A stretch of DNA of 64,000 nucleotides from Spirochaeta thermophila DSM 6192 (GCF_000147075.1 NC_014484.1:1257501-1321500), one strand, 5' to 3'; positions 59,111 through 64,000 are shown, counted from the first letter of the stretch. Translations and numbers: made by a program. Notes: generated by a model not told the origin, from the sequence alone.

Positions 59111-59139
59111 TTGACATACGACCAGGGCGGGGGTATGCT
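59111..59139 (+). promoter_or_regulatory. Promoter placing +1 on the ATG of the cyclase
   Basis: TTGACA (59111-59116), 17 bp, TATGCT (59134-59139); expected +1 is 59146, the A of ATG. No ribosome site. Confidence 0.75.
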
Positions 59140-59145
59140 TCGAAT

Positions 59146-60585
59146 ATGAAAGGCATCGTTCCCATCACCAGGAAGGTGACCCTCCTCATATCGGGATCGC
59201 TCATCGTGGGAATCGGGCTCATCGTGGGGATCTTCACCACCAACATCGTGAACCTCATACGCGAGACCACGGCCGAGAGCCTCGTGACACAGAGCGAACT
59301 CCTCTACAACGCCATAGAGAACTTCATGATGCCGGGGGAGGCGCCCCTCGCGGTGAACTACTTCATGGACATCTCGGAGGACCAGCCGGGTACGAGAATC
59401 CGCCTCTTCCGGGCCGACGGCACCCCGGCCTTCAGTGACACCACCACCATTCTTCAGGTGAACACGCGTCTGGGCGGCCAGCGGTTCTCACCTTCGAGCC
59501 CACGGGCCTTCGTGGGAGTGCCCCCTCTCTCCGACGACCTCCTCGCCCGCATCGGTTCGCCCTACCCCCACCCCGTGCAGGTGCAGGACGAGGCGGAGGG
59601 CCGCACATACCTCACGGTGTACTCCCCTCTCATCAACCTCCCCAAGTGTACCGTCTGCCACGGAGAAGACCACACGGTCCGTGGGATCGTCGAGATACAG
59701 GACGACATCACCTCCTCGGTGCAGACACAACAGGCGAACGTGATCTTCGCAGGGAGCGCCTTCCTCACCATTGTGATCATCCTGGGGTGGGTCCTCACCT
59801 TCTTCCTCAGGCGATCGGTCCTCGAACCGGTCAGGAAGATCGGCGAGGTGTGCGCCGCCGTCACCAACGGGAACTTCCACGTCCGGGTGGATCTCCGCCC
59901 ACGGGACGAGATCGGGCTCCTCGGGGAGACGGTGAACACCATGGTGCAGGGGCTCTACGAACGCTTCGAGCTCTCGAAGTTCGTCTCCAGGACCACCATA
60001 CGGGCGGTACAGGACGCGAGCGAGGAAGGGGTGCGCACCACGATGGTGCTCCTCTTCTCCGACGTGCGAGGGTTCACCTCGTTCGCCGACAGGGAGGATC
60101 CCGCCCGGGTGGTGCATGCGCTCAACGAGCTCCTCTCCCTCCAGACATCGATCGTCCATGCCCACGAGGGCGACATCGACAAGTACGTGGGCGACGAGGT
60201 CTTCGCCTTTTTCCAGGGAATCGATGCGCCGCTCCGGGCGGCCCGCGCCGCCCTCGACATACAGCGCGTGCTCGAGGAGAGGAAGGATCAGGTGGCGGGC
60301 CTCTCCGTGGGGATAGGGATCCACGCCGGGGAGGTGATACTGGGAAAGATAGGGAGCGCCGAGAGGGCCGATTTCACGGTGATAGGCGACAGCGTGAACC
60401 TGGCCTCGAGGCTCTGCGACGTGGCGCCTCCAGGCAAGGTGGTGATCTCCGATGCCTTCCACCGGCTCCTCGGGGAGGCAGCCGTGGTGGAAGGCCCCTA
60501 TCGTCTCTCGGTGAAGGGCAAGAAGGAAGACCAGAAGGTGTACATGCTCGTAGGCCTGAAAGGAGAAGACGATGCAGAGGCGTGA
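59146..60585 (+). CDS. Membrane adenylate cyclase with periplasmic c-heme sensor motif
   Basis: A 479-residue protein. Helix at residues 11-32, a periplasmic sensor of about 160 residues containing CTVCH (168-172), a second helix about 197-218, HAMP, then a class III cyclase domain (about 295-460). The two metal Asp are in FSDVRGFTSF and KYVGDEVFAFF; Lys in KYVGD and Asp in ADFTVIGDSVNLASRL favour ATP over GTP; Asn and Arg of NLASR are kept. The CxxCH motif implies covalent heme, as in c-heme sensor domains of Geobacter chemoreceptors. Overlaps the P460-like gene by 14 bp. Confidence 0.9.
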   Translation: MKGIVPITRKVTLLISGSLIVGIGLIVGIFTTNIVNLIRETTAESLVTQSELLYNAIENFMMPGEAPLAVNYFMDISEDQPGTRIRLFRADGTPAFSDTTTILQVNTRLGGQRFSPSSPRAFVGVPPLSDDLLARIGSPYPHPVQVQDEAEGRTYLTVYSPLINLPKCTVCHGEDHTVRGIVEIQDDITSSVQTQQANVIFAGSAFLTIVIILGWVLTFFLRRSVLEPVRKIGEVCAAVTNGNFHVRVDLRPRDEIGLLGETVNTMVQGLYERFELSKFVSRTTIRAVQDASEEGVRTTMVLLFSDVRGFTSFADREDPARVVHALNELLSLQTSIVHAHEGDIDKYVGDEVFAFFQGIDAPLRAARAALDIQRVLEERKDQVAGLSVGIGIHAGEVILGKIGSAERADFTVIGDSVNLASRLCDVAPPGKVVISDAFHRLLGEAAVVEGPYRLSVKGKKEDQKVYMLVGLKGEDDAEA

Positions 60586-61117
60586 GAGGTCCCTCATGGG
60601 CGTGGTGGTCGTACTCCTGGTTCTGCCGGTGATCGCAGGATGCGAAAAGGAAAGAGCCTCCTATCGGGTGCCGGAGGGGTACCGCGCGTGGAAACGCACC
60701 ACCACGGTGGAGCTCGACTACCCCATTCCCGGACACGGGACCGCCTACCGAAGGATCTACGTGAGTCCGGAGGGGGAGACCCCCCAACGGGGGGCCGACG
60801 GATCCTACGTGTATCCCGAGGGGACCATGGTGGTGAAAGAGGTCTACCGGCAGCGGCCCACCGATCCGGAGCAGACACCCGATATGTTCACCGTGATGAT
60901 AAAGGCACCCGAGGATCCGCGGAGTCGGGGGGGATGGATCTGGCTGGTCCAATCGGGGGACGAGGTGATGATCGTATCAGATTCATTCTGCGAGAGCTGT
61001 CACGAGAATGCGAACGAACCGCATCCCTACGGTGACGGGAATCCCCGGGGAGTCTTCCGGGACTACCTGTTTTTCCCCTACCCTCCACCTCGTGGGAATG
61101 GGGAGGCAGCTCAGTAG
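60572..61117 (+). CDS. Cytochrome P460-like c-type lipoprotein
   Basis: A 181-residue lipoprotein (lipobox VIAGC) with a cytochrome P460 domain: EGYRAWKRTTTV, PEGTMVVKEVYRQ with the Lys that could cross-link heme, and FCESCHENANEPHPYGD with the CxxCH motif. P460 proteins act on hydroxylamine or NO or serve as heme binders. GGAG precedes ATG 60572, inside the end of the cyclase. Co-transcription with the heme-sensor cyclase suggests a joint role. Overlaps ccsA tail to tail by 7 bp. Confidence 0.85.
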   Translation: MQRRERSLMGVVVVLLVLPVIAGCEKERASYRVPEGYRAWKRTTTVELDYPIPGHGTAYRRIYVSPEGETPQRGADGSYVYPEGTMVVKEVYRQRPTDPEQTPDMFTVMIKAPEDPRSRGGWIWLVQSGDEVMIVSDSFCESCHENANEPHPYGDGNPRGVFRDYLFFPYPPPRGNGEAAQ

Positions 61118-61845
61118 GAGTGCAGCCCCTTGAAGAGGAAAGGCACGCCCACGAGGGTGAAGAGGAGCAGGAAAGCGCCCACTACGGGCATGAGGCGGAA
61201 AGGGGTGCGTCGGCTGAGCGAGGCCGGAAGGTGGAGATAGGCGGTGTACCAGAGCCAGACGATGAGTGACCAGGTCTCTTTGGGGTCCCACCCCCAGAAC
61301 CGCCCCCAGGCGAAGAAGGCCCATACCGCACCGAAGACGAGTGCCCCCAACGTGAAGAGGCCATAGCCAGCCCGGAGAAGCCCCTCCATAGTCGATGTCG
61401 TGGCGGCCGAGGAGGAGCGCCGGAGCGCGAGGACCGCGCCCGCCAGAAGGAGCACCTCGCCCACCGCCGTGGTGCCGACGTGGAGGACCAGCCACGCCGA
61501 GACCAGGATGGGGCGGGCGGAAGAAGGAGGCGGGGCCAGGGGGGAGAGGGCGAGGGAAGCGAGGGCCCAGGCCAGGAAGAGGAGGACCGGCTCGGACGGG
61601 CGCAGGAGGAGCCAGGCGGCAATGAGCCCCACGGAAAGGAAGAGGAGGAGGTGGAAGAGGGAGAGGAAGGCCGGTAGGCCCGTACGCGCGGATTCATAGC
61701 ACCAGGCGAGGACAAAGAGGAAGAGGGAGAGGCCAGCGCCCCAGCGCCCCACCCTCCACTCCCGCCCCCGGAGACGGCCGAGGCCCACCGCCACCATCGA
61801 GGCGAGGAGCACCCCCCACCCCGCGATCGTCAGTATACGTGTCAT
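61111..61845 (-). CDS. ccsA: Cytochrome c assembly protein CcsA/CcmC type
   Basis: A 244-residue protein with about eight membrane helices and the heme-handling WWD motif WGRFWGWDPKETWSLIVWLW. It is part of system II cytochrome c maturation, delivering heme to CxxCH. AAGGAGG stands 5 nt before ATG 61845, which overlaps the ResB-like stop. It follows bioB and the ResB-like gene in one operon and faces the two CxxCH proteins. Confidence 0.9.
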   Translation of the reverse strand: MTRILTIAGWGVLLASMVAVGLGRLRGREWRVGRWGAGLSLFLFVLAWCYESARTGLPAFLSLFHLLLFLSVGLIAAWLLLRPSEPVLLFLAWALASLALSPLAPPPSSARPILVSAWLVLHVGTTAVGEVLLLAGAVLALRRSSSAATTSTMEGLLRAGYGLFTLGALVFGAVWAFFAWGRFWGWDPKETWSLIVWLWYTAYLHLPASLSRRTPFRLMPVVGAFLLLFTLVGVPFLFKGLHSY

Positions 61846-62606
61846 GTGCGCCTCCTTCCGGGAATCCCGAGCAGCACCACCCCCGCCCCCATCGCCGCCA
61901 ACCCTCCCATCACTACCCACACGCCCTTCACCCTCCGAACCACCAAGCCCACGAACCTCCCCTCCTGCACCCGCACCACCTCCACACCCCCCAGCCGCTC
62001 ACCGGCACGCACCACCCTTCCCTCCTCTCCGATCCTCACCCTCCCCTCCCCTTCGAACCACACCTGCACCCCACCCACCGTCGCTCCCTGTCCGGGATAC
62101 AGCACATGATACCCATCCCGCACCCTGAGGACGAGCCGCTCTTCCTTCGTATCACCCAGGAAGACCCACCACACCCCCACCCTCACCGGCCTATTCGGCC
62201 CCACCCACTCCTCCCTCCCACCCACACGGAGCCGCACCTCCCCTCCCTCTGCCTCCCCCACCTCCTCCACCGTCACCACCTCACCCTCCACCGCGAACCC
62301 CTCACCCTCACCCACCCACACCACCCCGCCCCTCTCCCCCACCCCCCACACCACCCCGCCGGCCAGCACCGCCACGAGCCCCACATGCACGAGATCGGCC
62401 CCCAGCCCTCTCCTCCCCCTGAACGCCCTCCCCTTCCACAACCGGTAGCCCACACACCCGACCACCATCACCCCCAACCCCACCATCGCACCCGTGGCAA
62501 AGGGACTCGGGAGCCCCAGGAGCACTCCCACGAGCACCATGCCCCCCACCACCCCTACCCCCACCGCTCCCAGAAGGAGGGACCTCACCTCATTCCCCCC
62601 ACCCAT
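61842..62606 (-). CDS. Compact ResB/CcsB-like cytochrome c assembly protein
   Basis: A 254-residue protein with two N-terminal membrane helices, a third after a basic loop (DLVHVGLVAVLAGGVVWGV, with the conserved His), a periplasmic domain of about 130 residues and a final helix (GVWVVMGGLAAMGAGVVLLG). This is the ResB layout, but half the usual length. Pairing with CcsA by a 4-bp overlap supports the call. The coding strand is extremely G-rich and C-poor. It overlaps bioB by 22 bp. Confidence 0.72.
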   Translation of the reverse strand: MGGGNEVRSLLLGAVGVGVVGGMVLVGVLLGLPSPFATGAMVGLGVMVVGCVGYRLWKGRAFRGRRGLGADLVHVGLVAVLAGGVVWGVGERGGVVWVGEGEGFAVEGEVVTVEEVGEAEGGEVRLRVGGREEWVGPNRPVRVGVWWVFLGDTKEERLVLRVRDGYHVLYPGQGATVGGVQVWFEGEGRVRIGEEGRVVRAGERLGGVEVVRVQEGRFVGLVVRRVKGVWVVMGGLAAMGAGVVLLGIPGRRRT

Positions 62607-63586
62607 TCCCCCACCCCCTCCCTCCCGACCTCACACCCCAGCGCCTCGAGCATCCTCAGATCCTTCTCCACCTCGCGTCCGGCCACGGTGAGCAGATCCC
62701 CCACCATCATCCCGGTGGCCCCGGCATAGAAGATCATGGACTGCAGATCCCCCAGGAGGAGCCGGCCCGCACACACCTTGAGCTCAGCCGCAGGATTGAC
62801 CAGCCGCACCATCGCGATGCAGCGCAGGATCTCCACCGGCTCCATGGCCTTCATCCCACCGAGCCTCGTCCCCGGAACGGGGATGAGAAAGTTGAGCGGT
62901 ACCGAATCGACCCGCTCCTCGTAGAGGATGCGGGCAAAGGCCACCCGCTCCTCGGGCGACTCCCCCATCCCGAAGATCCCCCCACTGCACACCTCCAACC
63001 CCACCGCCTTCGCCGCCCGTACGGTGGCAAGACGCTCCTCGAACGAGTGCGTCGAACAGATCCTGGGAAAGAACGAGGGAGCGGTCTCGAGATTGTGGTG
63101 GAACCGTGTGAGCCCCGCCTCCTTCAGCCTGAGGAGCGCCGCCTTCGACAGGGCCCCGAGCGAGGCACACCAGCGCACCCCTTCCTTCACCGAGAGGGCC
63201 GCTCTCACCTCATCGAGCTCCTCCTCCGAGAGGCGTTCCCCGCTCGTCACCACCCCGAAGTGCCGTACGGGAAGCCGACGGGCCACTGCCCGATACTGTT
63301 CTTGAATCACCTCCGCACGCCTTAAGGGATACACCTCCACCTCCGTGCGGTGGTGGGCCGACTGGGCGCAGAAGGCACAGTCCTCGGTGCACGCCCCGCT
63401 CCGCGCGTTCATGATGGAGCAGAGGTGCACCCTGTGGCCGAAACGTGCGAGCCTCAGTCGATTGGTGTAGACGAAGAGCTCGGGGAGGCGCGAGGCCGGC
63501 ACCTCCAGCACCCTCAGGGCATACTCGTCGGGCAGGCTCTCCCCCGCCTCCACATACTCCCCTATCACCTTGAAGAGTCGCTCCAT
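62585..63586 (-). CDS. bioB: Biotin synthase
   Basis: A 333-residue radical-SAM enzyme that inserts sulfur into dethiobiotin. Cluster motif GACTEDCAFCAQS, then the family blocks RFHHNLETAPSFFP, CSGGIFGMGES and VPLNFLIPVPGT. The Arg/Cys ligands of the auxiliary cluster are plausible (VKEGVRWCASLG, FHHNLETA). Start 63586 is set by family length and by the promoter, whose +1 falls on this ATG. A BirA-type operator overlaps the -35. No other biotin gene is in the window. Confidence 0.95.
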   Translation of the reverse strand: MERLFKVIGEYVEAGESLPDEYALRVLEVPASRLPELFVYTNRLRLARFGHRVHLCSIMNARSGACTEDCAFCAQSAHHRTEVEVYPLRRAEVIQEQYRAVARRLPVRHFGVVTSGERLSEEELDEVRAALSVKEGVRWCASLGALSKAALLRLKEAGLTRFHHNLETAPSFFPRICSTHSFEERLATVRAAKAVGLEVCSGGIFGMGESPEERVAFARILYEERVDSVPLNFLIPVPGTRLGGMKAMEPVEILRCIAMVRLVNPAAELKVCAGRLLLGDLQSMIFYAGATGMMVGDLLTVAGREVEKDLRMLEALGCEVGREGVGEWVGGMR

Positions 63587-63592
63587 GCCCCG

Positions 63593-63621
63593 ATAATGCG
63601 ATACGGGGGAGGTTTCGTCAA
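63593..63621 (-). promoter_or_regulatory. Promoter placing +1 on the bioB ATG
   Basis: On the minus strand TTGACG (63616-63621), 17 bp, CATTAT (63593-63598); expected +1 is 63586, the A of ATG. No ribosome site. Confidence 0.65.
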
Positions 63622-63646
63622 CCAGGCTACATAAATGGTTAACATT
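63614..63646. promoter_or_regulatory. BirA-type biotin operator over the bioB promoter
   Basis: TTCGTCAAC (63614-63622), 15 bp, GTTAACATT (63638-63646). Half-sites and spacing match the TTGTTAAC-N15-GTTAACAA pattern of biotin repressor sites, with a few mismatches. It covers the -35 box, so binding should block transcription. Confidence 0.65.
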
Positions 63647-64000
63647 ACCCACCTACATGTCCCTGAACTGATGGAAACCATAGACACAGGATACATGTAA
63701 AAAAGAACCCCCGAGCAGCGACACACCCCCCGCAGGCACCATCGGGAACTGAACACGGCACTCCACTCCCCACACCGTAAAGGCATGGATCACCGATAGA
63801 GGAGATGACTTATAGTGTGTAATCCCCATCGGATCGGAAAAGACCCCTCATGCCCTCGTGAGCCCGAGCTCTCAGTCTATCCACGCGGGGCGAAAATTCA
63901 ATTGTGCGCAGCGCCCCTTCCCTTACACACGAGGATGTCTCAGCACAAGACTCAGTCTCGCGGAGGAGTATCCGTCTGTTCTCTCTCTTCTTTCATGTAG
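63647..64000. other. Right-end stretch without a recognised gene
   Basis: No frame here looks coding. It holds TATAGT at 63811-63816 without a good -35 and an interrupted inverted repeat GGGGCG (about 63887) / CGCCCC (about 63911). It may be the upstream region of a gene beyond the window or carry an RNA. Confidence 0.4.

Follow-up and report, generated by a model that had tools for sequence, protein, structure and literature searches.

The closest described relatives of the sensor analysed here form the sCache_heme family (PF11845, Tll0287-like; PF21563, Mcp40H-20_sensor), which a 2026 preprint presents as NO-binding. Its members carry an extramembrane single-Cache domain with a CXXCH helix between the late strands, followed by a transmembrane helix and a HAMP domain, and adenylate/guanylate cyclase (PF00211) is named among their output domains (PMC12889525). 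One HAMP-linked member displays the kinetics of a NO sensor and forms no stable O2 complex (PMC12889525). The closest solved sensor domains are those of GSU0582 and GSU0935 of Geobacter sulfurreducens (PDB 3b47 and 3b42), whose output is MCP/chemotaxis and not cAMP. Their hemes bind NO and CO, both of which displace the axial Met that binds the reduced heme, and Met60 exchanges with the redox state (PMC8396549).

The window studied here, a stretch of 64,000 nucleotides, spans bases 1257501-1321500 of the Spirochaeta thermophila DSM 6192 genome, which is one contig of 2,472,645 bases. The organism is a thermophilic anaerobe that probably lives by fermentation. Four genes described in the first-pass annotation (cyclase, P460-like lipoprotein, ccsA and resB) were recovered at the positions it had given. 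A transmembrane class III adenylate cyclase of 479 aa (59146..60585, + strand; PF00211 and HAMP above cut-off) is followed by a lipoprotein of the cytochrome P460/c′-beta fold, predicted to hold one heme c (60572..61117, +). The two reading frames overlap by 14 nt, in keeping with the overlap claimed by that annotation. The pair faces, as also claimed, a ccsA/ccsB-type cytochrome c heme lyase subunit (WWD motif protein; 61111..61845, −) and a compact protein assigned to ResB of System II cytochrome c assembly (61842..62606, −), with the 3′ ends of the P460 gene and ccsA overlapping by 7 nt; bioB (62585-63652) comes next after resB. Because they run convergently on the opposite strand, the ccs genes lie outside the cyclase operon in the window. 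A putative sigma-70-type promoter, TTGACA-17-TATGCT (59111..59139, +), was found once against 0.3 expected in shuffles, and its sequence is unchanged in a congeneric genome. It ends 6 nt 5′ of the cyclase ATG, and since the −10 element stands this close to the start codon, the cyclase transcript is predicted to be leaderless or nearly so.

Judged from its sequence, this is a real and conserved heme c sensing adenylate cyclase module, whose ligand and direction of control we infer. We give a probability of roughly 0.6 to the reading in which the block is a periplasmic heme c sensing module with cAMP output, NO or oxidation displaces Met61, and the P460 lipoprotein is an accessory. Heme loading, His/Met ligation, the NO or redox signal, the direction of the cAMP change and the role of the partner are the conjectural elements of this model. 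The Cache domain would carry one heme c on C168 and C171, with His172 proximal and Met61 distal, and a reduced, anaerobic periplasm would favour a six-coordinate His/Met heme. Binding of NO or oxidation of the iron would release Met61, upon which the Cache dimer would rearrange and, through TM2 and the HAMP domain, alter class III cyclase activity; the altered cAMP would be read by CRP-type receptors. The P460 lipoprotein is probably translated together with the cyclase and anchored in the compartment of the sensor domain; as an accessory heme protein it would bind the ligand or oxidant that the sensor binds, and either tune the sensor's input or pass it on. CcsA and ResB would be kept in this organism only for maturing these two proteins.

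The cyclase consists of a transmembrane helix, a periplasmic domain, a second transmembrane helix, a HAMP domain (59803..59955, +; PF00672, 46.7 bits) and a class III catalytic domain (60046..60552, +; PF00211, 77 bits). CTVCH (residues 168-172; 59647..59661, +), predicted to attach heme covalently and to supply the proximal His172, lies between the two transmembrane helices, which upholds the earlier description of a class III cyclase with a periplasmic CTVCH. All catalytic residues are present (D306, D350, K346, T411, N418 and R422), forming the residue set of class III adenylate cyclases: the metal-binding Asp pair, the Lys and Thr (or Asp) base selectors and the transition-state Asn and Arg. 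Among 23 readable orthologues, D306, D350, K346 and N418 are kept in 22 and R422 in all, and the nearest solved chains to the catalytic domain are adenylate cyclases. One relative (G201, L153:6229-7794) retains the heme motif, the Met and the P460 partner, with a degenerate cyclase domain that has lost its catalytic residues.

A search of 393 Spirochaetota genomes with a sensor profile gave matches in 23. A scan of the genome collection with the P460 alignment added a single locus, the 24th (L085, a MAG); the one named relative that came up is a Spirochaetales MAG. All 24 sensor orthologues, at 22-96% identity, contain CxxCH followed by a cyclase domain, so that a chance occurrence of the motif is ruled out; lack of such conservation was one of two outcomes that the first-pass annotation had named as refuting its proposal, and by this test the proposal stands. 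Met61 (59326..59328, +), the predicted distal axial ligand, is likewise invariant (24/24) and aligns with Met60 of GSU0935; counted along the alignment, GSU0935 His144 is position 110 of the 3b42 chain, so that Met60 falls at position 26. The annotation had pointed to the c-heme domains of Geobacter chemoreceptors as the nearest precedents, and both profile and fold place them first. For the single-Cache, sCache_heme-like domain (residues 33-200; 59242..59745, +), the best matches of the 24-orthologue profile are 3b47 (1.9e-6) and 3b42 (2.4e-5). The same two structures head the Foldseek matches of its AF2 model (pLDDT 81), at about 15% identity in structural alignment and with TM-scores of only 0.3-0.5, a modelled monomer being compared here with domain-swapped dimers. 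In the model, strands at positions 114-120 and 123-133 precede the CxxCH helix (136-142), which a strand at 148-157 follows; this is the Cache arrangement, with the helix placed as the preprint describes (PMC12889525). Relative to the Pfam families, the spirochaete subfamily sits at or below the cut-offs and is set apart by CHGxxHxxRG and the invariant Met61: the window's sensor scores 24.8 bits with PF21563 (cut-off 27) and 12.2 bits with PF11845 (cut-off 24.1), and 17/24 and 7/24 relatives, respectively, match at E<=0.01. Other PF21563 matches in Spirochaetota lie away from P460 genes; several of them, in open frames of about 205-230 aa, may be stand-alone sensor-type domains.

Genes beside the pair in other genomes bear on the nature of the signal. 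A Fur-family regulator, cydA, cydB and rubrerythrin adjoin it in G098, G022 and G201, with ferritin too in G022; Fur, rubrerythrin and ferritin do so in G005, and ferritin in G255 (loci L148, L150, L153, L155 and L141, from three families). These neighbours point to oxidant or NO stress. The window locus has no such neighbours and no NO-related gene beside the module, and no conserved target gene was found adjoining all pairs. Proteins that bind cNMP are present in the window's genome. Another protein of the same genome (L064:2-2089, −) combines 4Fe-4S, iron-only hydrogenase and MCP signalling domains and is a possible hydrogenase-type chemoreceptor.

The strongest competitor of the NO-or-oxidation model, though distinctly the less probable, is a sensor of oxidants or redox potential and not of NO, in which heme oxidation by O2 or peroxide entering the periplasm would release Met61, and the resulting cAMP change would set off the stress defence of an anaerobe. 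The stress genes of the five loci fit it, although three of the five come from one family; so do the likely strict anaerobiosis of the host and the redox-linked release of Met proposed for signalling by GSU0935 and GSU0582 (PMC8396549). Against it count the c′-beta fold of the partner, which is that of a NO/CO binder, and the NO-type kinetics and absence of a stable O2 complex in the signal-fused family member studied (PMC12889525).

The four genes are not a chance assembly, because their order and orientation are kept in a second genus with unrelated flanks, at 57-58/53/43/27% identity; in a congener the layout is the same at 95/83/89/82% identity. These genomes belong to a small order, represented in kinship searches by three genomes of two genera. 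More widely, a P460 gene adjoins the cyclase in 21 of the 24 loci. In a 22nd (G320), the contig runs out at the cyclase and a P460 match begins a separate contig, and two loci (G118 and G186) have no P460 beside the sensor cyclase. The partner lies downstream in 16 loci (type A) and upstream in 5 (type B), and the sensor and P460 trees both divide the types at 100/100. Two genomes, G332 and G344, are type B in both trees, though they share a family with the type A genomes G057, G270 and G342, which indicates that sensor and P460 travel together. By genome, P460 occurs in 20/23 with the sensor versus 15/370 others (Fisher 2.6e-21, a value that ignores relatedness), and high-scoring P460 genes occur in sensor-less spirochaete genomes (L086-L098).

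The assembly genes behave differently at the two scales. A PF01578 gene is present in 23/23 sensor genomes versus 116/370 others, so that the companionship suggested by the first-pass annotation exists at the level of the genome. Of the two linkages it proposed to count, that with P460 is conserved; that with Ccs is seen at only 5/24 loci, in three arrangements: convergent (the window, G002 and G001), cyclase-P460-resB-ccsA (G255) and P460-cyclase-resB-ccsA (G344). The window's ccsA scores 69.9 bits with PF01578 (cut-off 29.9), has the WWD motif with WGxFWxWDxKExW conserved, and is the sole such gene in the genome. Its ResB is unusually short for System II (254 aa) and reaches 18.3 bits with PF05140, below the cut-off of 24.6; a homologue that adjoins a sensor-P460 pair in another spirochaete is a clear ResB, at 107.5 bits. 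Across both strands of the whole genome, the CxxCH codon pattern occurs 70 times, against 105 for a reversed control pattern. Inspection of all 70 sites ruled out the explanation that the Ccs genes serve other c-type cytochromes. The genuine matches outside the module are cytoplasmic zinc or Fe-S proteins (UvrA, class I LysRS, DnaG, HIT, radical SAM, ferredoxin-type and zinc-ribbon proteins), and the rest are frames with neither a family match nor a coding signal. In this census, restricted to two cysteines at CxxCH spacing, the sensor cyclase and the P460 lipoprotein were the only exported proteins to turn up. The assembly system, with its single PF01578 gene, thus seems to act on two substrates, and the module encodes both.

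It is worth asking whether a shared need for heme c is all that joins these genes, with a P460 protein that scavenges NO or carries electrons on its own and has no effect on the cyclase. The scarcity of adjacent Ccs genes and the 15 spirochaete genomes with P460 but without this sensor leave some room for such a maturation cluster. We consider it improbable, as the pair is intact in 21/24 loci, mostly without adjacent Ccs, occurs in two gene orders with joint clade switching, and is not matched by other members of the sensor family in Spirochaetota, which do not adjoin P460.

The supply of heme raises a further alternative. Genes for hemA, hemL, hemB and a hemC-cobA-hemD fusion are present and clustered (L162, G000:C1:1766000-1784000), whereas ferrochelatase was not found in the genome and no AhbD exceeded the cut-off; heme may therefore be taken up from outside or arise by a pathway not recognised here. 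It is quite unlikely that CO, or the availability of heme, is what the module detects. Reduced GSU0582 and GSU0935 bind CO with high affinity (PMC3460858) and heme import is possible, but no recurring gene of carbon monoxide metabolism or heme uptake was noticed near the pair.

The P460 lipoprotein has a lipobox (..VIAGC), scores 55.3 bits with PF16694 (cut-off 27) and carries its heme motif, CESCH, at residues 140-144 (60989..61003, +). The motif columns C115, C118 and H119 of the P460 alignment are invariant in 21/21 partners. The family profile finds 7ead (1.1e-14) and 6hiu (1.3e-8) and matches TtCP-beta, McP460 and NsP460; 7ead and 6hiu are also the top Foldseek matches of the AF2 model (pLDDT 86). 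Adaptor-protein matches of the small profile among solved structures were at chance level and were set aside. Lys89 (60836..60838, +), aligned with McP460 Lys78 and TtCP-beta Phe61, occupies what the alignment marks as the heme cross-link site of cytochrome P460 sensu stricto, and a Lys stands there in 20/21 partners. At the position of McP460 Asp102 and TtCP-beta Gly82 the protein has Thr107, and the carboxylate is absent from 19/21 partners. A nearly invariant His is found at, or one residue off, the capping position. By these residues the partners resemble non-oxidising 'half-way' P460s; NsP460 likewise has the Lys without the distal carboxylate. While fold, CxxCH and cross-link-site Lys are shared with the P460/c′-beta superfamily (7ead, 6hiu, 6amg), the spirochaete protein differs in its tether to the membrane as a lipoprotein, in its pairing with a sensor cyclase, in the His near the capping position and in a C-terminal tail, ANExHPYxDGN..FRD, conserved in the 16 type A partners.

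Oxidation of NH2OH by P460 requires the distal proton-accepting carboxylate (PMC11928373). With Thr at this position, hydroxylamine oxidation by the partner is unlikely, its identification as a hydroxylamine oxidase was rejected, and hydroxylamine, one of the ligands first suggested, is disfavoured. An enzyme making NO from hydroxylamine for the cyclase to detect is for the same reason (PMC11928373) the least credible alternative, despite PF16694 membership, the Lys in 20/21 partners and the tight linkage with a probable NO sensor. The Lys-heme cross-link itself needs peroxide to form (PMC11928373), which suggests a speculative, rather improbable two-heme switch: the P460 lipoprotein would remain uncross-linked as long as the cell is anaerobic, and peroxide would convert it to the cross-linked form, changing the delivery of ligand or electrons to the cyclase, so that a covalent change to the heme would let cAMP register contact with oxidants.

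The first-pass annotation had regarded the coupling of periplasmic heme to cAMP as new. The 2026 preprint already includes the fusion of sensor and cyclase, without mention of a P460 lipoprotein partner (PMC12889525); what appears to be new is the pairing with P460 and the dedicated assembly genes. A search of the literature combining P460, adenylate cyclase and c-type cytochrome gave no hits, and the words cyclase and spirochaet- are absent from a 2025 review of the P460/c′-beta proteins (PMC11928373).

The module probably reports nitric oxide or oxidant stress, and spirochaetes thereby gain a candidate periplasmic NO/oxidant sensor with cAMP output. What is known of the P460/c′-beta fold comes mainly from nitrifiers and methanotrophs among the proteobacteria; its conserved pairing with a cyclase offers a testable signalling role for this fold. 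The genome of S. thermophila provides a natural minimal case, in which a cytochrome c assembly system has apparently two substrates and these belong to one signalling module.
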